20,197 bases of DNA, from the IMG/VR virus record IMGVR_UViG_3300009082_000256, positions 1 to 20,197 of that record. One strand, given 5' to 3'. The notes beneath the pieces were generated by a model. That model was given only the letters and a program-made list of their open reading frames with translations. It made no database searches and had not been told where the DNA came from. The translations under genes and the position numbers were made by a program. This document shows, one piece after another, positions 1 through 19,612 of this stretch. This stretch comes from a virus. Positions within the stretch are counted from its first letter, which is position 1. The number at the start of each line of letters is the position of its first letter.

Positions 1-314
1 GCGAGTGGGAGTGACATCAGAAACGTCCACTCCGGCATCGTTAGGAAGGCCAGTGAAAAGGCAGCCCCTATCCAAACGCTCGCGCACCACATGCACGTCA
101 GCCCCTTCGCCAATTCGTTCGTTCCCATCGCCACGTTTGCGGCAGAGTATCGCACGCCAACCGCATGACGCAATCGAGCGAATACTTCCCATGGACCATC
201 CTCCCGAACCAGCAGGCTCGTCACCCTGAATACCGCAAGCGCCAGAATGACGAACGCCCACGGACCAGCCGACCAGTCCGATAGGCGCACCCACAGTATA
301 GCGTCAGGCGGCAT
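1..314 (-). CDS. DUF1360-like membrane protein, C-terminus cut by window edge
   Basis: An open frame reads from an ATG at 314 through position 1 without a stop, giving 104 visible residues. The translation has a hydrophobic segment at about residues 19-36 (AFVILALAVFRVTSLLV), then REDGPWEVFARLR at 37-49, then LTCMWCASVWIGAAFSLAFL at about 72-91 as a second membrane segment. The pattern 'hydrophobic helix, R-x-T/S, E-D-G-P, CxxC-x-S-x-W, hydrophobic helix' is what I know from the DUF1360 family of small phage and Bacillus membrane proteins, whose biochemical role is unknown. The start overlaps the end of the glycosyltransferase gene by 11 nt. A weak AAGG lies about 9 nt upstream, and a GTG at 290 is an alternative start. 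The family call is from memory of the pattern, not a search. Confidence 0.72.
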   Translation of the reverse strand, partial: MPPDAILWVRLSDWSAGPWAFVILALAVFRVTSLLVREDGPWEVFARLRHAVGVRYSAANVAMGTNELAKGLTCMWCASVWIGAAFSLAFLTMPEWTFLMSLPL

Positions 315-759
315 TGGGCGCAACCTTCGACTTCTTCTTCGCCTTCTTTGGCTTGGTCAACGTGCCGTCAACTTTCACGGGATGACCAGCCTCAACCTCG
401 AAGGCAGTCGGCACATTGGCCGGGACATCTGGCGGCGGCGGAGGTTCAGGTTGAGGCACAACCGGAGCGACGGCTCGTACCTCCTGCGGCACGACTTCGA
501 ATAGGTGCGGCTGAACCTCGATGTCCTTGCGATGCACAAGGAACACTTCGCCGCCGCCACGGAAGCCGTAGCGCGTGCCCGTAGCCAGCCCCAGCACAAT
601 ATGCTGGCCTCGGTTCGGGTGCGTGTATCTGGTCAACAAGTAGTCTTGGTCTTGCATCTTGGCCTCCTGTTCGGCGGGCAGCGCTACAGCGAAAGGCGCA
701 AGCTGGCCTTCGGCAACCTTGATGCCGCTAGTCCGTCCGCCTCTGCATCCACAGCCCAT
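304..759 (-). other. Possible internal-start product of the glycosyltransferase gene (151 aa, or 117 aa from 657)
   Basis: Inside the 958-codon gene and in the same frame, ATG 759 (residue 808, MGCGCRGG) has a textbook ribosome binding site, AAGGAG at 766-771, with 6 nt spacing. ATG 657 (residue 842, MQDQDYLLTRYTHPN) has AGGAGG at 663-668 with 5 nt spacing. The segment begins exactly where glycosyltransferase homology ends. It resembles small free-standing phage proteins with an MxCGC start, or with an RYTHPNRG...YGFRGGG...F-VH-DI pattern, encoded near head genes. It may be made separately as well as fused. This is inference from the start signals and the domain boundary; no product is known. 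Confidence 0.4.
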
Positions 760-3180
760 CGGTTGCTCCTTGGCATACTTCTCTTGCATGTAGGCGATGA
801 GGTCTTTGTGACCCTCGACGCCCAACTCACGACGACCACCGGTATAGAAGCGATAGACCACTCCCTGCTCCGGCACGCGGATGAAGCACTTCCCGGCCCT
901 TGCCAGTCGCCATTGATAGTCTACATCTTCCCACGACTTCATGTTCTCATCGAAGCCGCTTATCTCATCGTGCCACGCCTTCGGGACGAGGCAGGTGACA
1001 AGCGCCCAATGATAAAGCGGCGCTTCCGGTTGCCGGATGGCTCGCTCACAATCATAGTCAGCAGAGCGATAGCCTATGCGTGCTTCCTTGGTGCGCTCAT
1101 CGAAGTCGATGATGTTGTCTTGCAAGTCCTTCGCCAAGCCCTTCGGGTCAACGAAGGCGCGCCCGATGTAGTCGCAATAAGGGATGGCGTTCTCCAGCCG
1201 CCAAGCCTCGATAAGCATGTCCAGCGTCCACGGCAGCAGGTAATCGTCGGCGTCCAGCCACAGCAGGAACGAGCCACGCGCTTCTCTCGCTCCAAGGTTG
1301 CGACACGCGCCTGCGCCCGTGCGCCCAGCCGTGAAGATGAACCGGGCGAAGGGATAGGCGTCAAGCAGCGCCATGTCCGGGTCATCGCCCGTATCATCTA
1401 CGACGATGGCTTCCCACTTGGTAAAGGTTTGACCCTCCAACGAATCCAGCGCATCGACCAGATACTTGCGATGGCCGGGTCCGCAGGGAATGACCACCGT
1501 GACCAGCGGCGTGTCATACTGCCTGACTGGGTGCGAGTAGCGTGCTGGTTGAGCATAGGAAGCGAAGGGGTGCTGGCCGTTGCCTTTCTTGCCAGCCCAC
1601 GGATGCCAAGGCAGCCAGTCAATTTCCCGGTAGTCCGCATTGCCGCTGACGTGACCAGACATCCATGAGTAGTGGAACAGCCCTTCATTCGTGACCCGCT
1701 TGGCAGCGTAGCCAATTGCCCCGGCCCGAAGCCAGAACTCCGCATCCTCACTTCCGGCTCCATGAGGCGCGTACCGCTGCCGATAGCCTCCAAGTCTGCT
1801 CCACATCTCGGTCCGGAACACACAGCAGGTCGGCACCTGATTGCGCCGCAGAAGCTGAGCGTTGTAGTCCCAATCGGTCGGCCACTTGGAGAGGTCGGAT
1901 GTTCCGTCTGGCTTGTGCCACGTCAAGCCGGTGTAGGCGATGCCGAGCGACGCGTCTGCCTGAAGCGCCCGAATGCAAACGGACAGGAAGGTCGGGTCAA
2001 TCTTGTCATCAGCGTCGAGGCAGCAGACGTACTTGATGCCTCGCTCGCGCGCCCACGCGATGCCGCGGTTGCGCGCATGCGCCACCCCTGCGTTGTCCTG
2101 CCGGATGTATTGCAAAAGAGAAATATCCCGCCCCATCGCCTGCACAACATCGCCGGTGTTGTCGGTGCTGCCATCGTCCACCACGACGATAGCTTTGAGG
2201 TCGATATAGTCCTGAGACGCGGCACTGCGAATTGCATCTGACACGCGACCGGCGTAGTTGTAGGTCGGGATAATGATTGCCACGGAAGCCGGGGATTGCT
2301 TGGCTTCCAGCGTCAGCCGGTAGGTATCGGCCACCTTCGCCACCTGCCGAGGCCACGTCCATTCGCTAACCATGTGCAAGGCGTTGCGGCTCAGGGAAGC
2401 CCTGTGAGCCGCGCACCAGCGCAAGCCAGCTTCCAACTCATCATAGTCGCCCACGCTCGCTAGGTAGCCGTTCAGACCATGAACAACGTACTCTAGGATG
2501 CCGCCGTGACGCCAACCTAGCACCGGGACGCCTGAGGCGAGCGCTTCGAGCGTGCCGATGCCGAAGGTCTCCTTGGTCGTGGCAAGATAGACGCCCGCCT
2601 GCTTGACTACGCCCTTCATCTGGTCGTGGCGCATCAGCCCTGTCAGGCGCACGTTGGAAGGCTGCTCACCATCCGCGAATGTGCTGACGAAGTGCAGGTC
2701 AGGGCAGCGCCGAGCGAGCTCGGTCATCGGCCGTGGGTCACACACATCACCGGTGCGGTTCTTGTTCCAGAGGACATAGCCAGCGTTCTCGCCGGGAGCG
2801 CCCCACGCCTCGAGGTCTATGCCGTGACCGATGACATCAGGCGTGAAGTGCATGTCCCGCTGGAACGCCTCCGCCACCCATGCGCTCGGCACGGTGACCC
2901 GCAAGGCCGCACGCAGGTCACGGATGACATTGCTGTTGGTCGCCCACTCCCACGCCTGCGCCGCATAGTCCGCCGTCCAATACAGACCGTGGCAGTGACA
3001 GACATCGGGAACTTGCATGCCAAGACCAGCGTGTGACGCAAACAGGTCGAAGCTCTGATACGGGTCGTCAATCAACGTCACGCCGAAGTCCGGCAGGTAG
3101 CGGTTGTAAGCCTCGATGACGCGGTTGATGCCGCTCTCGCCGCCCAGCTTCTTGAGGTAAGGGACCATCAGGACGCGCAC
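304..3180 (-). CDS. Multidomain glycosyltransferase (GT4-GT2-GT2) with C-terminal phage-type module
   Basis: 958 residues from GTG 3180, overlapping the upstream methyltransferase gene by 13 nt. An ATG at 3168 is possible but would remove the first strand residues MRVL. Residues 1-290 look like a GT4 (GT-B) enzyme: an N-terminal Rossmann-like strand and an E-x7-E pattern at E204/E212 in TKETFGIGTLEALASG. Residues 299-520 are a GT2 (GT-A) domain with IIIPTYN, VVVDDGSTDNT (332-342), LDADD (388-392) and SEDAEFWLR (477-485). Residues 559-790 are a second GT2 domain with VTVVIP, VVDDTGDD, WLDADD (641-646) and WEDVDYQWRL (750-759). All three keep the expected acidic residues, so all may be active. 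Residues 808-958 are not glycosyltransferase: a Cys/Gly start (MGCGCRGG), a compact segment at 840-897, a Pro-rich linker and a Lys-rich tail. The protein probably builds a short glycan in the host cytoplasm; acceptor and sugar are unknown. Confidence 0.88.
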   Translation of the reverse strand: MRVLMVPYLKKLGGESGINRVIEAYNRYLPDFGVTLIDDPYQSFDLFASHAGLGMQVPDVCHCHGLYWTADYAAQAWEWATNSNVIRDLRAALRVTVPSAWVAEAFQRDMHFTPDVIGHGIDLEAWGAPGENAGYVLWNKNRTGDVCDPRPMTELARRCPDLHFVSTFADGEQPSNVRLTGLMRHDQMKGVVKQAGVYLATTKETFGIGTLEALASGVPVLGWRHGGILEYVVHGLNGYLASVGDYDELEAGLRWCAAHRASLSRNALHMVSEWTWPRQVAKVADTYRLTLEAKQSPASVAIIIPTYNYAGRVSDAIRSAASQDYIDLKAIVVVDDGSTDNTGDVVQAMGRDISLLQYIRQDNAGVAHARNRGIAWARERGIKYVCCLDADDKIDPTFLSVCIRALQADASLGIAYTGLTWHKPDGTSDLSKWPTDWDYNAQLLRRNQVPTCCVFRTEMWSRLGGYRQRYAPHGAGSEDAEFWLRAGAIGYAAKRVTNEGLFHYSWMSGHVSGNADYREIDWLPWHPWAGKKGNGQHPFASYAQPARYSHPVRQYDTPLVTVVIPCGPGHRKYLVDALDSLEGQTFTKWEAIVVDDTGDDPDMALLDAYPFARFIFTAGRTGAGACRNLGAREARGSFLLWLDADDYLLPWTLDMLIEAWRLENAIPYCDYIGRAFVDPKGLAKDLQDNIIDFDERTKEARIGYRSADYDCERAIRQPEAPLYHWALVTCLVPKAWHDEISGFDENMKSWEDVDYQWRLARAGKCFIRVPEQGVVYRFYTGGRRELGVEGHKDLIAYMQEKYAKEQPMGCGCRGGRTSGIKVAEGQLAPFAVALPAEQEAKMQDQDYLLTRYTHPNRGQHIVLGLATGTRYGFRGGGEVFLVHRKDIEVQPHLFEVVPQEVRAVAPVVPQPEPPPPPDVPANVPTAFEVEAGHPVKVDGTLTKPKKAKKKSKVAPNAA

Positions 3181-3890
3181 GAAGCACCGCCTGTCTCGGA
3201 CACCATGTACTCGCCATTGACCGCCGGGACAGTCGAATACATCCTATATGCCCGGCGCCAATGCTCCTCTGCCCACGCCATAAACCATTCGGTGTTCGGC
3301 CACTTGTTCCAACCGGCATGATAGGCGAACAGGAATGATTGTGGCCGCAAGCCATCCATGAAAGCATCCCGCTCGTCGATAGGCGTTTCATTCAACGAGA
3401 AGCATCCGATAAGCAGGTCAGGGCTATCGTGCCTTCCAATGACGACGTTGCTCTTGATGTTCCGATAGCTCAAGTGCTCGACAGCCATCATGGCGAACGG
3501 CTCAAGGTCGGTGATGTAGTGCTCTCCTCTGAAACCCATGCGGTCCAGCACGATAGCCATTGCACCGTAGCCGCCGCCAAATTCGCACACCGTCTTCAAG
3601 TCGGCCACCCGCATTCCGGGGTTATGCTGCTCCCATTGCCACAGGTGATAGCGCTGGCAGTACAGGTTTGACCAATCAGGCTCGCTGCCTATTCCGTACA
3701 GATTGATGCCCTCGTCGAGAAGGATGCGCGACATCTGCGCCAGCGCGGGTCCGTCACCGACGTACATCGTCGCCTCGACTGTCGGCCACCACCAAGGCAC
3801 TGCGATTGCATGCGGCAGCGCCGCTCGTTCAAGCGCCAACGCCTCGCACTTGGACATCCAGTAGACATCCTTGCTCGTGAGTGGTTGCAT
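3168..3890 (-). CDS. SAM-dependent methyltransferase-like protein, probable sugar O-methyltransferase
   Basis: 240 residues from ATG 3890, which overlaps the stop of the DegT-type gene (TGATG). The frame is open further upstream, but that part is only a shadow of the DegT gene. Residues 102-110 (CEFGGGYGA) match the SAM-binding motif I (E/D-x-G-x-G-x-G), and D128 in YITDLEP fits the acidic motif II residue that holds the ribose. The N-terminal 100 residues are Trp/Tyr-rich and not catalytic-looking, as in 'putative sugar O-methyltransferase' proteins of polysaccharide clusters. Its position between a sugar PLP enzyme and a large glycosyltransferase suggests it methylates a sugar hydroxyl or caps a glycan. 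Substrate is unknown; a non-sugar acceptor is possible. Confidence 0.75.
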   Translation of the reverse strand: MQPLTSKDVYWMSKCEALALERAALPHAIAVPWWWPTVEATMYVGDGPALAQMSRILLDEGINLYGIGSEPDWSNLYCQRYHLWQWEQHNPGMRVADLKTVCEFGGGYGAMAIVLDRMGFRGEHYITDLEPFAMMAVEHLSYRNIKSNVVIGRHDSPDLLIGCFSLNETPIDERDAFMDGLRPQSFLFAYHAGWNKWPNTEWFMAWAEEHWRRAYRMYSTVPAVNGEYMVSETGGASCAS

Positions 3891-5086
3891 CAGGAAGGTG
3901 ACCGCCAGTAGCCTTCGAAGACCTGCGCTACGTACTCGATGTCCTGCGGCGTGAGGTCCGGGTGGCAGCCGATATACATGCCTTGCTGGTCTGTCCAATC
4001 GGCCACTGGATAGTCCTCGCGCCGTAGCATGTCTTGGTAGATGGGCTGCGAGACAATCGGCATCATGTCGCGGGTCTCGACCCCCATCATGTTGAGATAG
4101 CCGCAGAAGTGTTGCTTGTTCGTCTCCGGCGGGAGGACGATGGGATACATCATCCATGCGTGCTCATTGTCAGGAGCGACGCGCGGCAGCACAAGTCCCA
4201 CCCCGAGATATTGAGCAATCATGCCCAGCCTTGCTGTCAGATGAGCCGCGTTACGTCTGCGAAGCGCCAGCATTTCCTCATAGGTTTCAAGCTGAGCAAC
4301 GCCAAGCGCCGCCTCCAATTCGGTAATACGATACGAGTGGCCTGCGTGGGTGAAGTGGAAAGAGCGCCCCGGCATCGGCTGAGGCGAGAACCAAGCATCA
4401 GTATTCAACTCCGCAATGTCCAGCCCGTGATTGACCAGCGAGCGCATCTTGCTGGCGTATGCCGGTGAGCTCGTCGTCGCAATCCCTCCGACGCCAGTCG
4501 TGATGAGATGAGCATTGTAGGTGGAGAAGCACCCGATGTCGCCCATGCTGCCGACGAGCCGACCCTTATGCCGAACGAACATCGCCTCACATGAGTCCTC
4601 GATGACCTTCAAGTCATGGGCGGCGGCAATCGCCAGTAGTTCATCCATCAGGCACGACTGCCCGTAGAGATGAACCGGTATCATGGCGACAGTATCCCGG
4701 CTGACCTTCTGCTCGGCCTCCCGCGGGTCCATGCCGTAGGTCACGCCTTCGATGTCCACGAACACAGGCGTCAGATTGTTGTGCAGCACGACATTGACCG
4801 TCGCCACGAAGGTCGACGCAGGCACAAGCACCTCTGCCCCATCCGGCCAACCGTGAAGTTCCTTCAATGCCTGCACCGCCACATGCAGGCTCGACGTCCC
4901 GCTGTTGCTCAGAATGCCATAGGGACACCCATGCTGACCAGCGAACATGCGCTCGAATGCCATGCTCATTGCGCCGTAGCTGATGCGCCCGCTGTCCAGC
5001 ACGGAATCGACTAGCTCCTTCATCCGTGGCGTGGCGCGGAACGAACCGACCGGAACATGCCGGAAGGCGTATTCGGAATGGCCCAT
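3890..5086 (-). CDS. DegT/DnrJ/EryC1/StrS-family PLP enzyme with His in place of the catalytic Lys
   Basis: 398 residues, the usual length for this fold-type I family. ATG 5086 has a strong ribosome binding site (GGAGGTG, 5091-5097) overlapping the end of the upstream gene. Recognisable features are SNSGTSSLHVAVQAL (60-74), the VPASTFVATVN block (88-98), VIEDSCEA (161-168) with D164 expected to bind the PLP pyridine nitrogen, and FSTYNAHLITTGVGG (187-201). In sugar aminotransferases the last block reads FS-x(4)-K-x-x-T-x-G-x-GG. Here residue 193 is His, and the codon reads CAT on the coding strand. The known His-bearing members, ColD and the E1/RfbH 3-dehydrases, remove the C-3 hydroxyl of nucleotide-4-keto-6-deoxysugars instead of transaminating. 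A 3-deoxysugar role is therefore plausible, but RfbH needs a partner reductase and none is in the window. Family certain, reaction inferred. Confidence 0.9.
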   Translation of the reverse strand: MGHSEYAFRHVPVGSFRATPRMKELVDSVLDSGRISYGAMSMAFERMFAGQHGCPYGILSNSGTSSLHVAVQALKELHGWPDGAEVLVPASTFVATVNVVLHNNLTPVFVDIEGVTYGMDPREAEQKVSRDTVAMIPVHLYGQSCLMDELLAIAAAHDLKVIEDSCEAMFVRHKGRLVGSMGDIGCFSTYNAHLITTGVGGIATTSSPAYASKMRSLVNHGLDIAELNTDAWFSPQPMPGRSFHFTHAGHSYRITELEAALGVAQLETYEEMLALRRRNAAHLTARLGMIAQYLGVGLVLPRVAPDNEHAWMMYPIVLPPETNKQHFCGYLNMMGVETRDMMPIVSQPIYQDMLRREDYPVADWTDQQGMYIGCHPDLTPQDIEYVAQVFEGYWRSPS

Positions 5087-5089
5087 CGT

Positions 5090-5812
5090 TCACCTCCAGT
5101 AGTGGAGCATGCCGAGCTTATCCATCTCGGCTACGTCGTCAGGCCTCAATTCGTCGGTCAGCAGCTTCCCGTGGTCGCCGCCACGCAAGGCAAGTGTGTG
5201 CTTGACCGGCGGCGTCTTGGTACCAAGCACGATAACGTAGTCCTTGAGCAGCCGAAGGCGAGGCGTCCCGTTCAGTTCGCTCTCCCATGGCGTCTCGTTC
5301 TCGATAAGTATCTTGAGCAGATGCTGCCTGCGCCAGAGCGCCGTCATGTAGGAGAAGTGATACGGGCTGTCCGGGTCGCTGATAATGAGCGGCACGTTGC
5401 CAGCCATGCCGTAGTCCTTGGCGAAACCGCTGTTGAGCCGGTCGCCAGTGAGGTCGAAGCGGGCGACGTACTCGAACTGCTTCATGTAGTCGGCACATAC
5501 CTGCACCGCCTCGCCATCCACCGGACCCGTCAACCAGTAGTCCTCCAACATCAGCACAAACACATCGTGCGGCATTTCCAGCAGCAACCGAATGAGCGCA
5601 TTTGACCAGCGGGCAACGGGATAGTCCTCGTACTTGCCGATGGAGTGGAAAGAGAAGTTGCGCGGCAACTGGAAGTCGGGAGGCGTGAAGCCACCTACGA
5701 CGACCTGCGGGTTCGGCTTCCAATACCTGTTGAGCAGGTAGGCATAGCCGCGCAGGGCGGGAAGGTACTTGTCGCTTGTGAGGACGTAGATGGGAGCATC
5801 CACGCCACCCAT
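5090..5812 (-). CDS. Glycosyltransferase-like protein, first gene of the glycan cassette
   Basis: 240 residues from ATG 5812. The N-terminus (APIYVLTSDKYLPALRGYAYLLNRYW, shown in two parts: APIYVLTSDK at 6-15 and YLLNRYW at 25-31) and VLMLEDYWLTGPVD (86-99) resemble GT-A-like proteins of polysaccharide and phage clusters. In these a 'LxLEDDxxxxxPVD' strand supplies the metal/sugar acidic residues; here only E90 and D91 are visible. NALIRLLLEMPHDVFVLMLED is typical of the helix and strand before the acidic motif. No signal peptide or membrane segment is seen. There is no clear Shine-Dalgarno sequence, and the start lies only 13 nt beyond a strong hairpin. The next gene begins 4 nt after its stop region. 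Acceptor and donor are unknown, and assignment is by motif and context only. Confidence 0.6.
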   Translation of the reverse strand: MGGVDAPIYVLTSDKYLPALRGYAYLLNRYWKPNPQVVVGGFTPPDFQLPRNFSFHSIGKYEDYPVARWSNALIRLLLEMPHDVFVLMLEDYWLTGPVDGEAVQVCADYMKQFEYVARFDLTGDRLNSGFAKDYGMAGNVPLIISDPDSPYHFSYMTALWRRQHLLKILIENETPWESELNGTPRLRLLKDYVIVLGTKTPPVKHTLALRGGDHGKLLTDELRPDDVAEMDKLGMLHYWR

Positions 5813-12833: not shown

Positions 12834-14863
12834 TTCTTCCGCCTCCACGTCTTGCGGATAGCAGAGATTAGACCCTGCGCGTTCCGCGTGACATTGACAG
12901 TTTCCTCTACGTCGTCAAAGACGTGCACCTCGACCTTGTTCTCAATGGGCGGAGGCACGTGCTTGACGTTCACCACAGGCGCAGGCGCTGCCTGTACCGT
13001 CACGTTGGGCGCAGGCGGCGCAGCGATGTTGACAATGGTCGGCGGGGGAGGCTCGACTGTGACGTTGACGATAGGAGCAGGAACGTCCACACGGATGTCG
13101 GGCAAGCGCTGCTCCGGCACCTGCACGATGACCGGAGGGATTTCAATGGCCTTCCGGGCGAGATAGGACCGCAGGCCCGGTTTCCGATTGAGCTCTTTCA
13201 CTTCGCCCTCCTCGGTATCAGTCAAGTCGTCTTGCGCTGCTGCTTCCTCCTCTCCTTCCTCCGCCTCCGGCTCGGTGACTTCGTCCGCTTCCGGCTCACT
13301 TTCATCCTCCATGCCAATGTCAGTTACGGGAGGCTTCGGCTCGTCATCGCCTTCGTACAATCGCTCCAGCGCATCCACCGCTGCCAGCCCGTTCAGCACA
13401 GCATCACGTTGCCGGTAGTTGCTCAACATGCCAAGCGCCTGCGTTAGCTCAGCACGTTTCTGGCTGATAAGCACTTCCATGGTCGAAGCGTCATTGCCTT
13501 CCACGTCCACAGGGTTCGGTATGCCCATCGCAAGCATCTCGACGTACTGGTCGTCAAAGAACAGGGACAGGATAGGCGAGCCGTCTTCCAGCCGTCCATC
13601 GTTGCGCTCTAGGTCATTGAACTGCTCTTGCGTGAGGTCTCCAACTTGCAGCATCTGCTCCCGGACCACCCGCTGCGACACCGATTCATTCGCAAGGCCG
13701 ATGTCATGCGCGTCGGCCCGAACCTTGCGTATCTCGGCTACCTGCCTGTCTTGAGCATCGTCGGAGTAGTCAAAGACAAGCCGCAAGTGAGGGGGAAGGA
13801 ACTTGGCTCCAATCACCCGCTCGCTTAGTTCAATCAACTGCCCGATGCCCTTCTGCCGTGCCTTTAGGTGTTGAATGAGCGCATCGGCTCGGGTAGCGCC
13901 GGTGCCAGTCATCGGCCACAACTCACGAGCGTCCACGCCGAAGGCCAGCGCAATCGCTGCCATGCCGAGGCTCACCGTATCCTGCTCGTTGAAGCCGTCT
14001 GGCATGCTGGCGAGGTCGATAAGGCTCAGGTCAGCTTCCTTGAGGCCAGCATCACCGACAACGATGGTCTTGCTGTAGCGAGAGAGGCCTTGGTTGTCCT
14101 GCGTTTCATTGGCTAGCTGGATGGCTTCACGGACGTGCTCAGGGTCAAGCCCGCCCTTGGTCACCATCAGGCCACGCGCCGGTCGGCTGCCAAGCTTCTC
14201 CTGCTTGTAGATGGTCATGTCGTACAGGTTCTGCGCCACGTTCAAGCACTTGCTCACGGCGCACAGGCCGACATCGTTCATCTCGGCAATAGGCGATGGG
14301 TCGAGCGAGGCGAAGGCGCAACGGGTGTAGTGCATCTTGTAGCGAGTGCCGTCTGTGTCCTGATAGATGACCGGGAACTCGGCATTGGACGTGCGGGTGC
14401 AACGAGCGCTGTCAAGCGACGCTACGCTGATGGGCGCACCAACGATAGGCCCGACAGGGTCGCCCTCCCCGATGACTTCCGCAAAGGCTCCGTTATCCTG
14501 CGTGAGCAGGTCGGTTATCCACTTCGAGAAGAACGTCGTCCAGCCACGCCCGAACTCAGCGCCGTCCAGCAGGATGTTCTCGAACCGGTCGGCCTGCACT
14601 TGGTGAGACATGATGGACAGGTCGTAAGGAACAATCTGCCACGGGATTGTGGTCATGTGTGAGACGAGGGCATACACCGCTCCGGCAAGGTAGTCGACGC
14701 GCTTGTAGAAGCGCCGAAGCTCTTGGTCCCGCCGAGTGGACCACCACGGGGGGATAAGCTCGCCAGCCGTCGACAGCCACAGAAGCAAGCCGAGCCGATT
14801 CTCTGCATCGGCTCGCACCCTGCTTTGAACTGTCTCACGCACCGCACCGGAGTTGTCAGGCAT
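12830..14863 (-). CDS. Portal protein with long C-terminal extension
   Basis: 677 residues from ATG 14863. The start overlaps the end of the terminase gene by 8 nt and has AAGGAG 8-9 nt upstream. Residues 1-440 look like an SPP1/HK97-type portal: WWSTRRDQELRRFYKRVDYL near the start, the LYDMTIYKQEKLGSRPARGL helix, and the GVDARELWPMTGTGATRADA region typical of the portal crown/stem helix. Residues about 500-560 are very acidic (EPEADEVTEPEAEEGEEE). Residues 576-648 hold repeated strands such as PAPIVNVTVEPP, PTIVNIAAPPAPNVTV and APVVNVKHVPPP, and the end is basic (KTWRRKK). The extension of about 180 residues is longer than the core needs; it may bind scaffold or DNA. Confidence 0.88.
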   Translation of the reverse strand: MPDNSGAVRETVQSRVRADAENRLGLLLWLSTAGELIPPWWSTRRDQELRRFYKRVDYLAGAVYALVSHMTTIPWQIVPYDLSIMSHQVQADRFENILLDGAEFGRGWTTFFSKWITDLLTQDNGAFAEVIGEGDPVGPIVGAPISVASLDSARCTRTSNAEFPVIYQDTDGTRYKMHYTRCAFASLDPSPIAEMNDVGLCAVSKCLNVAQNLYDMTIYKQEKLGSRPARGLMVTKGGLDPEHVREAIQLANETQDNQGLSRYSKTIVVGDAGLKEADLSLIDLASMPDGFNEQDTVSLGMAAIALAFGVDARELWPMTGTGATRADALIQHLKARQKGIGQLIELSERVIGAKFLPPHLRLVFDYSDDAQDRQVAEIRKVRADAHDIGLANESVSQRVVREQMLQVGDLTQEQFNDLERNDGRLEDGSPILSLFFDDQYVEMLAMGIPNPVDVEGNDASTMEVLISQKRAELTQALGMLSNYRQRDAVLNGLAAVDALERLYEGDDEPKPPVTDIGMEDESEPEADEVTEPEAEEGEEEAAAQDDLTDTEEGEVKELNRKPGLRSYLARKAIEIPPVIVQVPEQRLPDIRVDVPAPIVNVTVEPPPPTIVNIAAPPAPNVTVQAAPAPVVNVKHVPPPIENKVEVHVFDDVEETVNVTRNAQGLISAIRKTWRRKK

Positions 14864-16232
14864 CGCTCATTCTCCTTACCTTGACGTTCCCAGTCCGGGC
14901 TCGGATGGTCGAGACGATATAGCGCTCGGCATCCATGAGGTGAAATGTGCTCTTGTTTGCAATCTTCTCTGTCGGCTGGCCGCCCTTGTCAATCTCCCGG
15001 CTATACGTTCCCTTTTCGTCAAGGTAACGGCGGCAGGACTTGAACACTATGATAGCACCCTTCGCATGTTGTGCATACACCCTGTCAATGCCGACCTCTA
15101 CCTCCCCGATAAGTGGCTCACGGATTGGGAAGCCCGCTGCGCCGAACTCGTCGCGCCATTGGTCCTCGCTGCCAGCGCCACCGACTGCGAACTTGACGCC
15201 CCACTGCTTGAGCGTGTCAGCATGCTGGGCGATGGTCTTCCGCCCTTCGAGATACTCTTCGGTCAGATACAGGTTGCCGCTGGCCGGGTCTTCACGGAAG
15301 CGCACCGCTGCCATGTGCACGCCGCCGAAGTCCACGCCTGCATAGCATGGCCAGCTATCCGGCACGGGGAAGTCAGCAATCGTATGCTGCTCCAAGTCGA
15401 AGTTGTTGTAGATGAGCCCCTCGGGAATGTCGAACAGGCCGCGGTAGAACATGTTGACCTTCCACTGCGGCATCGTCTCTACCACGCGGTCGAACTCCTC
15501 CTTGGGAAAGGCAGGGTTGATGATGCTGGCAAACTGCACCACGTTGTAGAGCGGGTCCTTGGCGCGCCAACGGGCATGGACTTCCGTCTTGAGCCATCCG
15601 AGGTTGTATAGCGTCGTCGTGCCAAGCACGCGCCCAAGCCGAATGGACAATCGCCGCTGCACGGCTTCCCAAGAGCCCAAACCGAACTCGTCCATGCCGC
15701 ACTCATCCAGCCATGCAGCATTAGCCGTGGCGCTCTCCAAACCGCCTTCGGACTGCGCTGACCGAAGGATGATACGTCCCCACATGGGGTCATTCTGGTT
15801 GGTGGCGAGGAACCGGAGACTCGTCGGCTCACACAACTCAAGCACCTTCGCTCCAGCCCAGTAACGGGCCACGCCCAATTGTCGCTCAAACAGGCCGCGC
15901 ATTGCCGGGAGCATCTTGAGCTTGAACAGGTCGTAGGTCGCAGTGGCCGCTAGATAGTCGCCTCGCCCGCAGCGCTGTATCTCACGCCACAGCCACAGGG
16001 GACCGAAGGTTGTTTTGCCGCCCTGGCTGCCAGCCAGTACGAAAGTGAAACGAGCGTCACTATCCCACGCGGCCTCTTGGCCCTCGTGAAATGGGACCCA
16101 TGAGCCAAACTCATCGAGAATATGACGGTCCGGGATTGACGACGCATCGAGGACGCGCTTCCGCCGGTCGGCCTCTGCTAGCACCTCGTTCTGAAGCTGG
16201 ACGCTCGACCCGGGCGTCAGTTGAATGCTCAT
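14856..16232 (-). CDS. terL: Terminase large subunit (DNA packaging ATPase-nuclease)
   Basis: 458 residues, usual family length. The ATPase half has Walker A at LAGSQGGKT (66-74) and Walker B plus catalytic acid at AAWLDE (172-177). The nuclease half has the RNase H-like YAGVDFGG (297-304, D301), a further acidic strand LYLTEEY (321-327) and D434 in HLMDAERY (431-438). Upstream is the TAGT-like gene (6 nt gap). The TerS-like gene is 1.5 kb further upstream, separated by the second ParB/TAGT pair. It translocates DNA into the prohead through the portal and cuts at headful or cos ends. Start chosen by length; no clear Shine-Dalgarno. Confidence 0.93.
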   Translation of the reverse strand: MSIQLTPGSSVQLQNEVLAEADRRKRVLDASSIPDRHILDEFGSWVPFHEGQEAAWDSDARFTFVLAGSQGGKTTFGPLWLWREIQRCGRGDYLAATATYDLFKLKMLPAMRGLFERQLGVARYWAGAKVLELCEPTSLRFLATNQNDPMWGRIILRSAQSEGGLESATANAAWLDECGMDEFGLGSWEAVQRRLSIRLGRVLGTTTLYNLGWLKTEVHARWRAKDPLYNVVQFASIINPAFPKEEFDRVVETMPQWKVNMFYRGLFDIPEGLIYNNFDLEQHTIADFPVPDSWPCYAGVDFGGVHMAAVRFREDPASGNLYLTEEYLEGRKTIAQHADTLKQWGVKFAVGGAGSEDQWRDEFGAAGFPIREPLIGEVEVGIDRVYAQHAKGAIIVFKSCRRYLDEKGTYSREIDKGGQPTEKIANKSTFHLMDAERYIVSTIRARTGNVKVRRMSDA

Positions 16233-16238
16233 GCGGCG

Positions 16239-17072
16239 CTAGACCGGCTTGCCATCGACCTTGAGCACCATACCAAACGTCGGGTCGGATGGCATCTCCG
16301 CTCCGGGCTTCAACCGCAGTCGATTGAAGCGGAACGGCGAGTAGTCGACAACATGCTGCGGCCTGCCCCACCTGGCCCGAATGGTCACAACGTCCGGGTG
16401 CTGACGTTGCAAAGACAGAGCCATTGCAGCGCGCCCCCCGCCCTTATAAAGCTCATCCGTATTGCCGCCCTTCATGCGCATCGTGCCTTCCTTCGCCGCG
16501 AGAAACGCATAGAACAGCAGCGTGCACCATCCATCCTTCAAGCAGCGAAGCGAGAGGTCCGTGTCCTCGTTGTAGCGCCCACGCCACCGATAGGGCAAGT
16601 CGTTGCGGAGCAGGATGCAGGAATAGATGCGGGTGTTGATGTCAAGAGCAGGATACCTTAGCTTGCGAGGAGCAAACATCGCATACTGCATCCCTGCTTG
16701 CGCCACGTTCTCAAACCTGCCCGCAAAGTCCTCGATGGCAGCAAAGGCCCCGCCGTTGCTCAAGCGCCATTTTATATTCCTGTGCAGGCGATAGAACTCG
16801 CGGATGTTGTCGTCCAGTATCCAATGCCACTTTGCTCCAGCGGCAATCGAGTGCTCCCACACGAAGTTGCGCGCCGGGATAGACCCCTGCCCAAGGTTGG
16901 AGAACGGCGTCACGATAAGCAACTCGGGCGGGATGACCTCGGCATAGGCGTCGTGCTCCTGCGGCTCTACGACCACATGAAACGGAACGCCGATACGAGA
17001 CAGCGCCTTGGCAGTCGGCCGTGACTTCCACCTACCTTTGGAGATGATGTAGATGGGATGAATCGGGTTCAT
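16239..17072 (-). CDS. TET-associated-type glycosyltransferase (TAGT-like), copy 2
   Basis: 277 residues from ATG 17072, in ATGA overlap with the second ParB-like gene. The frame is open up to 17258 but the extra residues are a shadow of the ParB gene. SKGRWKSRPTAKAL (11-24), GSIPARNFVWEHS (63-75), WHWILDDNI (82-90) and YNEDTDLSLRCLKDGW (167-182) fit the TAGT group as I know it: a GT-A-like fold with a DDN metal site and an E-D-T-D-L block. MKGGNTDELY and RWGRPQHVVDY near the C-terminus are also typical. Family members are predicted to put a sugar on hydroxymethyl- or oxidised pyrimidines in phage DNA. Substrate here is inferred; protein glycosylation is not excluded. Confidence 0.78.
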   Translation of the reverse strand: MNPIHPIYIISKGRWKSRPTAKALSRIGVPFHVVVEPQEHDAYAEVIPPELLIVTPFSNLGQGSIPARNFVWEHSIAAGAKWHWILDDNIREFYRLHRNIKWRLSNGGAFAAIEDFAGRFENVAQAGMQYAMFAPRKLRYPALDINTRIYSCILLRNDLPYRWRGRYNEDTDLSLRCLKDGWCTLLFYAFLAAKEGTMRMKGGNTDELYKGGGRAAMALSLQRQHPDVVTIRARWGRPQHVVDYSPFRFNRLRLKPGAEMPSDPTFGMVLKVDGKPV

Positions 17073-17704
17073 GTCGTGAACCGCTTTAGGTTTTCCTTGA
17101 GCTTCCGGGGATACCAAATAGCTCTCGTCTTCATCGTCACGGGCTGAGCAACCGCCTTCGCAAACTCGGCGACGCTCTTCTCGTCCTCGAAGTGCACAAT
17201 GACTGAGTGCAGGCTGTTCATGTTCTTCTCGTTCACGAACTCCGGCATGAACTTCCATATCTCCTCGACCGTCACTTCCGTGAGCTTGCCAGCAACGCGG
17301 TCGAGCATCAGTTGCAGGCTGGCGTCCTGCTCGCCTATATCGGCAAGCAGGGCATCCATCTTGTCCGTATCGACACCCGCTAGGGAGCCTATCGGGTCAA
17401 AGACAGCCAGCACGCGACCCTCCTCATCGTCTGTCAGGTCAACGTACTTCACTGGAACCGATGTCTCGTGGCGCTTCTGCGCCAAAGCAACTCGCAGGTG
17501 TCCGTCGAGAACGAAGCCGGTGCGCTTATTGACAATCACCTCGTCAATCCATCCGACATCCGCCAGCACCGCCGACAGCGCATTCTCCTGTAGAAGGGGA
17601 TGCAGTCTCCAGTTGCGCGGGTTCGCCATCAGGTCGCCCGGAGGAACGTCCGCATGACCGACGATGCGATTCCTCCACTTCTTCGGCTTCTTCGTGGCGG
17701 CCAT
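17069..17704 (-). CDS. ParB-like (ParB/Srx fold) protein, copy 2
   Basis: 211 residues from ATG 17704 with AGGA about 7 nt upstream. Residues 18-110 are a ParB/sulfiredoxin-like domain: DLMANPRNWRLHP (24-36), GWIDEVIVN (51-59), the signature GFVLDGHLRVALA (64-76) and VFDPIGSLAGVD (101-112). The C-terminal part (SVIVHFEDEKSVAEFAKAVA, then IWYPRKLKENLKRF) is a small alpha/beta domain that differs from copy 1. There is no HTH or plasmid-partition domain, so it is not a partition protein. Phage ParB-like proteins next to TAGT and methylase genes may bind or process modified DNA or nucleotides. It is translationally coupled to the glycosyltransferase gene after it, suggesting joint action. Confidence 0.85.
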   Translation of the reverse strand: MAATKKPKKWRNRIVGHADVPPGDLMANPRNWRLHPLLQENALSAVLADVGWIDEVIVNKRTGFVLDGHLRVALAQKRHETSVPVKYVDLTDDEEGRVLAVFDPIGSLAGVDTDKMDALLADIGEQDASLQLMLDRVAGKLTEVTVEEIWKFMPEFVNEKNMNSLHSVIVHFEDEKSVAEFAKAVAQPVTMKTRAIWYPRKLKENLKRFTT

Positions 17705-17707
17705 TGG

Positions 17708-18193
17708 CTATCCTGCGTCCGGGCTCTTGGTCGTCTTACCAGCGGTGCGTTGCAGGACTTCCGCCACAAGCTCCTCAAAGAGCGCCGTGTCGTCTCCGCC
17801 CTGCCCGAGCACCTCTTTCCGCCAATCGGCCTCCAGCTTCAATGGCATGTCCAGCCCAAGCAGACGCGCCCTGCGTTGCATGATTGCGAGGCAGCGGTCG
17901 ACCGCAGGCATAATCCCACGGCGCGCCTGCGGAAAGACCGCCATGAACAAGGCATCCAGTCGCGCCCGCTCCAAATTGATAAGCTCCTGCGACGTTTCTT
18001 GCGCCCACCTCGCCAGCGTTTCCATCACCGCCTTCTGGCACGCCTGCGGAGAGTTATAGCCCGTGGCTTCGGCAATCTCCGCAAAGCGGGCACCCGCAAT
18101 CCGAAGCTCGATGGCCTCAATCGCCCTCACCTGCGCCTGCACCCGCCTGGGTGACGAAACCCGCTCTCCGCGGCGGGATTTCAACTTGCTCAT
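17708..18193 (-). CDS. Probable terminase small subunit (HTH protein)
   Basis: 161 residues from ATG 18193 with the strong site AGGAGGT 6-7 nt upstream. Residues 20-60 (QVRAIEAIELRIAGARFAEI, then ATGYNSPQACQKAVMETLARW) form a helix-turn-helix of the TerS type, in which 'RIAGxxFAEIAEATGYxSxQAxxKAV' binds the packaging site. The rest is helical and basic, ending in a Gly/Asp linker and a short tail that could oligomerise. Position just before the large terminase region supports this. It is less certain than terL because the gene is not directly next to it, and the same HTH occurs in regulators. Confidence 0.72.
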   Translation of the reverse strand: MSKLKSRRGERVSSPRRVQAQVRAIEAIELRIAGARFAEIAEATGYNSPQACQKAVMETLARWAQETSQELINLERARLDALFMAVFPQARRGIMPAVDRCLAIMQRRARLLGLDMPLKLEADWRKEVLGQGGDDTALFEELVAEVLQRTAGKTTKSPDAG

Positions 18194-18207
18194 GATGCAA
18201 CCTCCTG

Positions 18208-18912
18208 CTAGAAGTCCAGTTCGACGCTATAGGACGAGCCGCCCCGCACGACCCGCCGGATATAGCGGGGATACATGGCAATCAGACGTTGAATGGCATC
18301 CTCTTCCATCTCCTGCGTGCGGTAGTCCTTGCATCCGCCGTCCAGCGCCCAATGCTCATTCTGCCAATAGGCGAAGCGTGCAGCAACCACGCCGCCAAAG
18401 TCCCGCATGCAGCGGAGGCACAGCTCGTAGTCCTCTTTGACCTGAAACGCTTCATCGAAGCGGAGCTTGTCGTTGATGATGCCCATGCAGCTTGCCGTCA
18501 CATAGGAGCGCCACAAGAAGGGGCGATAGGGATAGACCGACCTTGGAGCGCCATCCGTCGCCACTCCCCATACCGGATAGCCGATGTCCTCGCAGACCTC
18601 GAACAGCCGGAACCAAACAGACAGCCATTCCTCCTCCGTCAGGCCCAATCTCGAAACGTCGGTGTCGTTCAACTGGATATAGCCGTGGGTCACAACATCG
18701 TCGTCAATGAAGACGACGTAGCGCTCTTTTGTGTTGTCCAGTATCCAGTTCCTTGTCTTCGTGATGCCATGCACGGGGACGCCGACGACCGATGGGAACC
18801 GCGCGGCGTAGTCCTCTACCTCCTGCTCCGGCACGAAGAGCGTGGCAGACGGAATGACAGCGAGCGTCTTGACCTTATCGCTTCGGTTCTTGCTGGGAAC
18901 TGCTATCAGCAT
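18208..18912 (-). CDS. TET-associated-type glycosyltransferase (TAGT-like), copy 1
   Basis: 234 residues from ATG 18912 (MLIAVPSKNRSDKV); an earlier start at 18945 would add a non-matching leader. It overlaps the ParB-like gene by 38 nt. Features are IAVPSKNR (3-10), LFVPEQEVEDYA (25-36), TKTRNWILDN (51-60), VVFIDDDVV (66-74) with the DDD metal site, a CMGII strand (142-146), KEDYELCLRCMRDFGG (159-174) and GGCKDYRT (192-199). The R-x-x-T...TRN...IDDD...ED-x-x-L order matches the TAGT group. It is shorter and has a different metal motif from the copy at 16239-17072, so it likely uses another sugar or step. DNA as acceptor is inferred from the family and the ParB partner. Confidence 0.75.
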   Translation of the reverse strand: MLIAVPSKNRSDKVKTLAVIPSATLFVPEQEVEDYAARFPSVVGVPVHGITKTRNWILDNTKERYVVFIDDDVVTHGYIQLNDTDVSRLGLTEEEWLSVWFRLFEVCEDIGYPVWGVATDGAPRSVYPYRPFLWRSYVTASCMGIINDKLRFDEAFQVKEDYELCLRCMRDFGGVVAARFAYWQNEHWALDGGCKDYRTQEMEEDAIQRLIAMYPRYIRRVVRGGSSYSVELDF

Positions 18913-19612
18913 TTGTCTGCACCGCCGCATCCACAAGCGCTGCAATCGCGCCCATGAGTCTCTGGAACGGAATGACGCGCTCCGTTCCTACGGAATTGAA
19001 TGTCGACACATTCGAATAGCCGCCGCGCTTTACCGCACGCAATTGGAGCAGCTTCTTGAGCGTATCGAAGTCCGCAGCATCGACGCACGTGACCACGATA
19101 TATTCATTCTGCGGCTTCAGTTGGACAGCCTGCTCATAGATGGTGACATCTCTCGCCGGGGGATTGGTGTCCTCGCCATAAGACACGCCTTCCGCATCTG
19201 CCACCATTGCGAGCAAAGCATCTGCCCCCACCTTGGCCTTATTCAACTCATTCAACAGGTCGGCCAGCTTGTCCTCATCGACCGCAGCCATCGAGCCGAT
19301 AGGGTCAAGTGTTGCCATGACCAAGGCTTCCTCAGCCTCCGTGAGCCGCACGTACTTGACGGGCATCCTCTTCTCGTTCCGGCGCAACGCAAGCGACGCG
19401 CGCAAATGCCCGTCCACCACAAAGCCAGTCGTCTCGTTGACGATGACTTCATCGACCCAGCCCACTTCATCCAGCACCATCTCAAGCGCAAGCTGTTGCT
19501 TCTTCGGGTGGATGCGCCAATTGCGGGGATTGGCAAGCAGGTCGCTGGGGTCTACCTCTGCCGTGCTTGTAATTCTACTGCGCCACTCTGGTTTATCCTT
19601 CGTCTTGGCCAT
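18875..19612 (-). CDS. ParB-like (ParB/Srx fold) protein, copy 1
   Basis: 245 residues from ATG 19612, chosen because the start then aligns with the paralogue (MAKTKDKPEWRSRI against MAATKKPKKWRNRI); a GTG at 19618 is possible. Residues 20-112 repeat the ParB-like domain: LLANPRNWRIHP (25-36), GWVDEVIVN (51-59), GFVVDGHLRASLALRRNEK (64-82), TLDPIGSMAAVD (101-112). After a linker, EYIVVTCVDAADFDTLKKLL (170-189) begins a second small domain ending in RVIPFQRLM, which may carry the partner or base recognition. It is the first gene of the late block in this window and overlaps the TAGT-like gene. No ribosome binding site is seen. Confidence 0.85.
   Translation of the reverse strand: MAKTKDKPEWRSRITSTAEVDPSDLLANPRNWRIHPKKQQLALEMVLDEVGWVDEVIVNETTGFVVDGHLRASLALRRNEKRMPVKYVRLTEAEEALVMATLDPIGSMAAVDEDKLADLLNELNKAKVGADALLAMVADAEGVSYGEDTNPPARDVTIYEQAVQLKPQNEYIVVTCVDAADFDTLKKLLQLRAVKRGGYSNVSTFNSVGTERVIPFQRLMGAIAALVDAAVQTNADSSSQQEPKR

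Follow-up and report, generated by a model that had tools for sequence, protein, structure and literature searches.

Glycosyltransferases of the TAGT family, whose founding paper is reportedly that of Iyer et al. 2013, take their name from a genomic association with TET/JBP enzymes or a hydroxymethylase, an association that is not a catalytic requirement. The family's established member is the TAGT of T6, a beta-glucosyl-HMC-alpha-glucosyltransferase that adds a second glucose to DNA, and solitary TAGTs have been recorded in 288 of 753 phage genomes, where unknown glucosyl modifications have been suggested (PMC13216743). ParB folds, for their part, bind CTP, ATP or GTP, a box II arginine being required for nucleotide binding (PMC12704722), and a ParBc gene is associated with the phage DNA cytosine carboxymethyltransferase CmoX (PMC12783734). 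The subject of this report is a locus in which both kinds of protein occur together, twice. It lies at the right end of a 20,197-base virus fragment from IMG/VR (the window, here meaning this whole stretch), and consists of six genes that read, on the minus strand, ParB1–TAGT1–TerS-like–ParB2–TAGT2–TerL, where TerS and TerL denote the small and large terminase subunits. With moderate confidence, the locus is interpreted as two independent two-protein DNA-glycosylation units that are expressed with the packaging genes.

The six genes, with an overlap in each ParB-TAGT pair, had been proposed in an earlier note made from the same sequence; all are intact open reading frames at those positions, and the overlaps measure 38 nucleotides in the first pair and an ATGA in the second. 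The same arrangement recurs in a second metagenome contig (L002) at 99.66% identity to the window, and the locus is thus not an accident of assembly. Both transferases, which the earlier note had called TAGT-like and proposed for a profile search, exceed the curated cut-off of the Pfam TAGT profile (PF20691; 27.5 bits), TAGT2 with 140.2 bits (E 1.1e-40) and TAGT1 with 35.4 bits (E 1.4e-8). TAGT2 is 42-45% identical to TAGTs of Aeromonas, Vibrio and Tenacibaculum phages, and each enzyme displays acidic motifs of the GT-A type (DDD70-72, KEDYE and GGC in TAGT1; DDN87-89, NEDTD and GGNTD in TAGT2) that are invariant or nearly so among its relatives. No solved structure for TAGT2 was found by sequence search. 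In addition, Vibrio phage henriette 12B8 was seen to have a TAGT gene (L024:4944-5813) that its GenBank record leaves unannotated.

The two adaptor proteins are alike at one end only: 72 of 125 residues are identical between ParB1 and ParB2 across the N-terminal domain, but past it the count falls to 10 of 81. The ParB/Srx fold that had been proposed for both genes is confirmed by matches of both to PHROG ParB families and to the ParB part of phage ParB-methyltransferases and, for ParB1, by comparison of the family profile with solved Spo0J/Noc structures (E 1e-12) and by superposition of the model on CTPgammaS-bound ParB (7bnr; Z 12.4, root-mean-square deviation 2.5 A over 93 residues). The Pfam profile ParB_N was reached by four of the eight members of the comparison alignment, and not by ParB1 or ParB2 of the window. 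The box II arginine, Arg71, is kept in 96% of the ParB1 family. Beyond the fold, the proteins end in small domains of different kind, CTD-A in ParB1 and dom2 in ParB2. CTD-A (QLxPxxEY...VRRGGYKxGS...ERV) is the most conserved part of ParB1, while dom2, of about 65 residues, is found in relatives either as its own gene of 80-100 residues just 5' of the TAGT or as a fusion, with ParB or with the N-terminus of the TAGT. Neither domain yielded a curated Pfam or NCBIfam match in the relatives tested, nor a clear match to the PDB by sequence search; the stand-alone form of dom2 matches phrog_22103, of unknown function, at 5.7e-5. A single homologous family comprising CTD-A and dom2 was considered and is not claimed, their profile comparison reaching a probability of 8.8% only.

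These small domains are closely linked to the enzymes. Loci were gathered from IMG/VR by TAGT patterns alone, to which earlier matches and a few phage records were added, and were dereplicated at 75% identity; reverse searches employed CTD-A or dom2 patterns and kept the best 80 loci each, without dereplication. Among non-edge TAGT1-type loci, CTD-A lies directly upstream of the enzyme in 34/36, 32 of these with ParB, and a 35th locus (L088) has it approximately 480 bases further upstream. Among TAGT2-type loci, 69 of 78 have dom2, be it alone (29), with ParB (25), fused to the TAGT (14) or in a triple fusion (1); the remainder includes loci with dom2 downstream or close by, second copies in tandem, and broken copies. 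In the reverse direction, a TAGT is adjacent in 80/80 of the best CTD-A-pattern loci, and adjacent or fused in all 79 non-edge loci among the best 80 for dom2. ParB, dom2 and TAGT2 are joined in a single polypeptide in two independent proteins (L143, and L190 from a betaproteobacterial metagenome-assembled genome), and a search with dom2 alone of 50,697 phage records (tblastn) gave matches in TAGT genes only. The distance matrices of the C-terminal domain and the TAGT are correlated (rho 0.87 for type A, the units with CTD-A, and 0.44 for type B; p 0.001), and the corresponding values for the ParB domain and the TAGT are 0.69 and 0.03.

On these comparisons of sequences, the real partner of each TAGT would be the small C-terminal domain, CTD-A for TAGT1 and dom2 for TAGT2, and not the ParB domain. 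Because the linkage is obligate, because fusions occur and because the two diverge together, each domain is predicted to bind or activate its own TAGT. The earlier proposal that each ParB-like protein is the partner of its own transferase thus survives as regards linkage and fusions, but the partner-specific part is the C-terminal domain, and the ParB domain can be swapped. It is of note that a second small dom2-like gene stands just 3' of the dom2-TAGT gene in phages Aeh1 (L022:4879-5091) and POP12 (L026:4831-5028).

The mobility of the ParB domain is evident when 67 such domains are placed in a tree (115 alignment columns; many forks unresolved), on which the partner label (CTD-A, dom2, or other/methyltransferase) switches 20 times; for CTD-A, the well-supported branches alone require 10 changes or more. 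By this tree, the domain would be an exchangeable module that passes between TAGT adaptors and methyltransferases. The N-terminal domains of ParB1 and ParB2 are nevertheless sisters, each the nearest relative of the other (support 98/92), and TAGT1 and TAGT2 are, in their own tree, distant relatives and not recent duplicates. A duplicated pair, as first described, is consequently true of the N-terminal ParB domain but of neither the C-terminal parts nor the enzymes; within this phage, it seems that duplication or homogenisation affected the two ParB modules but not the enzyme-specific halves. Two other identities were examined for these proteins. Partition ParB proteins are characterised by helix-turn-helix and C-terminal dimerisation domains, a ParA partner and parS sites; the C-terminal parts of ParB1 and ParB2 are CTD-A and dom2, with no further Pfam domain, and ParA was not among the Pfam matches of the window genes scanned, so that a chromosome or plasmid partition ParB was rejected. 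A ParB-methyltransferase fusion of the phrog_498 kind was likewise rejected, since the phrog_498 match spans the ParB part only.

The presence of a ParB domain goes together with a position next to terminase genes. A TerL gene lies at most 4 kb downstream in 21/25 ParB-dom2-TAGT2 loci versus 9/36 ParB-less ones (Fisher p 6e-6), and downstream of 27/31 CTD-A/ParB units. An independent set of loci, from prophages in bacterial and archaeal genomes, gave 21/21 with ParB versus 1/18 without; it contains a few near-identical pairs, and TerL was assigned in it by hand. Since the TerL profiles had been built from the first locus set, the large downstream open reading frames of ParB-less loci were rescanned against PHROGs, which raised their terminases to at most 22 (an upper bound, with the families listed); pooled in this conservative manner, TerL is downstream of 42/46 ParB-bearing TAGT2-type loci versus at most 22/54 ParB-less ones (p 8e-8). 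Three downstream families near the TAGT are TerL proteins of unlike PHROG types (phrog_2, 9 and 15). The earlier note had regarded both the double set and its place among packaging genes as unusual: the former holds, two unlike ParB-TAGT units being found together in 1 of 111 loci surveyed and the remaining loci having one type each, but the terminase-adjacent position is what ParB-bearing TAGT units normally have.

The mechanism that can be proposed is one in which the TAGT of each unit would transfer a sugar, served by a dedicated adaptor composed of a ParB/Srx nucleotide-binding domain and the small enzyme-specific domain. The exchangeable ParB domain would probably bring the enzyme to phage DNA under the control of the bound nucleoside triphosphate, and, to judge from gene position, the units may act late, marking replicated phage DNA before or during its packaging. 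Three observations favour DNA as the substrate: the T6 enzyme acts on DNA (PMC13216743), DNA methyltransferases carry the same ParB modules, and the DNA carboxymethyltransferase CmoX has ParBc genes as companions (PMC12783734). As regards the sugar donor, a nucleotide-sugar epimerase family adjoins the TAGT in 7 dereplicated TAGT2-type loci (for example L148:4443-5402) and UDP-glucose dehydrogenases are near it in some TAGT2-type loci, neighbours that may hint at its identity.

Of the readings considered, glycosylation of DNA at a late stage of infection fits these sequences best, and several observations weigh against it. The solved structures closest to the GT-A fold are protein and polysaccharide transferases, including polypeptide GalNAc-transferases. 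The acceptor that had first been suggested, a base made by TET/JBP or a hydroxymethylase, was not borne out: in a survey of 51 TAGT-bearing records (41 contigs, most of them fragments, and 10 phages), no Tet/JBP or thymidylate-synthase-type enzyme was seen in any of the 41 contigs, and the complete records of Javan291 and KaiHaiDragon are also devoid of both families. Tet/JBP was present in 1/51 records, Nonlabens P12024L, itself without a ParB unit, and the thymidylate synthase family in 5/51, all of them large phages whose TAGT has dom2 as a neighbour or as part of the same protein; ThyX was seen in 2/51 and C5-methyltransferases in 3/51. An acceptor derived from any of these four enzyme families found no support, the families being mostly absent from the 51 records, whose contigs are incomplete. 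Finally, the divergence of ParB does not follow that of TerL, with no useful correlation overall, and distance matrices of TAGT and TerL show no significant correlation either. As ParB does not track TerL, nothing beyond position supports a coupling to packaging; of the coupling that had been inferred earlier, what stands is the location of ParB-TAGT units among packaging genes, and not a physical link. Late co-expression accounts for the gene order equally well as physical packaging coupling does, and small temperate phages may keep the units there for the sake of late timing and not of contact with the terminase.

The alternatives differ in what they make of this evidence. That ParB and TAGT are unrelated late genes brought together by chance has a probability close to nil: phage late operons do hold many accessory genes, but reciprocal linkage (80/80 and 79/79), two triple fusions and co-divergence already contradict an incidental neighbourhood. 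A protein acceptor (terminase, portal, capsid or host) or a surface glycan in place of DNA is unlikely, though it would agree with the polypeptide GalNAc-transferase folds, with the acceptor-making enzymes not found in the 41 contigs, Javan291 and KaiHaiDragon, and with the DegT aminotransferase and three-domain glycosyltransferase that the window carries after its capsid gene; it must be set against the scores of both enzymes for a family whose known member acts on DNA, an adaptor domain common to DNA methyltransferases and associated with a DNA carboxymethyltransferase, and the occurrence of TAGT2 relatives in T4-like phages alongside thymidylate-synthase-type enzymes. A somewhat better case, if still a doubtful one, can be made for the two units working in series on one base, TAGT2 adding the first sugar and a T6-like TAGT1 the second, to form a disaccharide such as that of T6 DNA. 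The T6 TAGT, which adds the second glucose (PMC13216743), matches the TAGT1 profile at 6e-16 and that of TAGT2 at 8e-6, and sister ParB domains would be expected if both units share a target; yet the other surveyed loci hold one type only, so that each type can act alone, and the grouping of the T6 enzyme with TAGT1 in the tree depends on long branches.

For the acceptor in ParB-TAGT phages, the candidates are an unmodified base, a base that a host enzyme or an unknown one has modified, or a non-DNA molecule. A broader proposal, decidedly improbable as it stands, would see widespread DNA glycosylation free of any hydroxymethylated precursor, in which a nucleotide-switched ParB loads the TAGT at the packaging stage onto an unmodified or host-modified base, two such marks being made in the present phage. 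It is considerably less probable again that the ParB domain is itself catalytic, preparing the base for the TAGT by a phosphotransfer like that of Srx or SerK. Such an activity would explain the missing hydroxymethylase, known acceptor pathways being mostly absent from the surveyed records, and the ParB1 model does resemble sulfiredoxin and free serine kinase in its fold, in addition to having the conserved box II arginine; but the DGHxR-type sequence fits nucleotide binding in general, many TAGT2 units have no ParB domain at all, and the domain changes places with its counterparts in methyltransferases, enzymes that require no preparation of that kind. DNA glycosylation by two adaptor-served units is thus the interpretation retained here.

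Features of the window, with position, strand and basis of assignment
Feature	Position	Strand	Basis or note
ParB1, whole gene	19612-18875	(-)	ORF (open reading frame); 38-nt overlap with TAGT1
ParB1 N-terminal ParB/Srx-fold domain, ~residues 1-125, box II DGHLR, conserved Arg71	19238..19612	(-)	PHROG, Spo0J/Noc profile, model
ParB1 C-terminal domain CTD-A, ~residues 158-225	18938..19141	(-)	TAGT linkage, co-divergence, conservation
TAGT1, GT-A glycosyltransferase, TAGT family	18208..18912	(-)	Pfam TAGT; nearer to T6 TAGT than to TAGT2
TerS-like small helix-turn-helix protein	17708..18193	(-)	phrog_645 9.7e-28, HTH_18 0.001; position only
ParB2, whole gene	17704-17069	(-)	ORF; ATGA overlap with TAGT2
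ParB2 N-terminal ParB/Srx-fold domain, ~residues 1-128	17321..17704	(-)	PHROG; sister of ParB1 N-domain
ParB2 C-terminal domain dom2 (WxxMPey ... TxKTkSIWyP), ~residues 142-205	17090..17281	(-)	TAGT linkage, fusions
TAGT2, GT-A glycosyltransferase, TAGT family	16239..17072	(-)	Pfam TAGT 1.1e-40; phage TAGT identity
Terminase large subunit TerL	14856..16232	(-)	phrog_5653 8e-25, phrog_2 6e-24
DegT aminotransferase	5086-3890		sugar module after capsid gene
Three-domain glycosyltransferase	3180-304		sugar module after capsid gene
Two further genes without assignment	5812-5090, 3950-3168		sugar module after capsid gene

Several features around the locus are of interest in their own right. The family phrog_645, labelled 'RNase E', fills the small-terminase position both in the window (17708-18193) and in a second locus (L033:2558-3064), where its gene is directly downstream of a TAGT1-type gene, as in the window; the 'RNase E' label is probably wrong. 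The sugar module of four genes that follows the capsid gene (304-5812) perhaps serves virion glycosylation, separate from the TAGT units. Past the right end of the window, the contig that extends it carries nine copies of a short hairpin with a 6-bp stem and an AACCG loop (L002:1225-4389, minus strand), each followed by GGAGA and an ATG and preceding successive small genes. All 54 of 54 stem cells pair, with changes on both sides in 4/6 pairs, and the motif, in the form searched, was not found in the window itself.

TAGTs, ParB-fold domains and ParB-methyltransferase fusions are already known. No earlier description was found of chains that join ParB, dom2 and TAGT, of the two obligate partner domains themselves, of ParB modules changing partners or of the association of ParB with terminase genes, although Iyer et al. 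2013, which was outside the search, may note part of this. The solitary TAGTs of phage genomes (PMC13216743) would thereby gain their missing partners, namely the small domains CTD-A and dom2 together with an exchangeable ParB module, with the ParB-bearing form being tied to packaging genes across three terminase types. The system also offers a test of what ParB domains do where phages modify their DNA (PMC12783734, PMC12704722), and precursor-free glycosylation could be sought directly in cultured phages, KaiHaiDragon among them.

The window units can be compared with several described systems. The TAGTs of T6 and P12024L belong to the same family (PF20691), the T6 enzyme being nearest to TAGT1, but have a hydroxymethyl- or TET-type acceptor pathway beside them (TET-linked in P12024L) and no ParB adaptor, whereas the window units have ParB adaptors and no known acceptor pathway was found in the 20-kb fragment. 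Among large phages, T4-like and other, the single-chain enzymes of Aeromonas phage Aeh1, Vibrio phage Kuja, Tenacibaculum phage PTm1 and Pectobacterium phage POP12 are of the TAGT2 type and have dom2, as in the window, but there it is an N-terminal extension of the TAGT, ParB is absent, and the phage encodes a thymidylate-synthase-type enzyme. The ParB-DNA methyltransferase fusions (phrog_498) of Stenotrophomonas phages StM171 and QH16 have a ParB domain up to 59% identical to that of the window and are also upstream of the terminase; their C-terminal part is a (degenerate) methyltransferase and not a TAGT partner domain. In both phages (L027:4992-5741 and L028:5001-5732, respectively), the window-like ParB was seen to be followed by what appears to be a degenerate methyltransferase remnant, upstream of TerL. 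In CmoX systems (PMC12783734), the phage enzyme that modifies cytosine in DNA likewise has a ParB-fold gene next to it, with a chemistry and an enzyme family that differ from those of the window. The closest counterparts extend the neighbourhood beyond metagenomes: Streptococcus prophage Javan291 has ParB-CTD-A, TAGT, TerS-like and TerL genes, a type-A two-gene unit like that of the window, and Microbacterium phage KaiHaiDragon has a type-A unit with ParB-CTD-A, gp85, a glycosyltransferase and a gene annotated as UDP-glucose dehydrogenase. Each carries one unit where the window carries two, and the annotations there read methylase or partition protein, together with hypothetical protein or glycosyltransferase.

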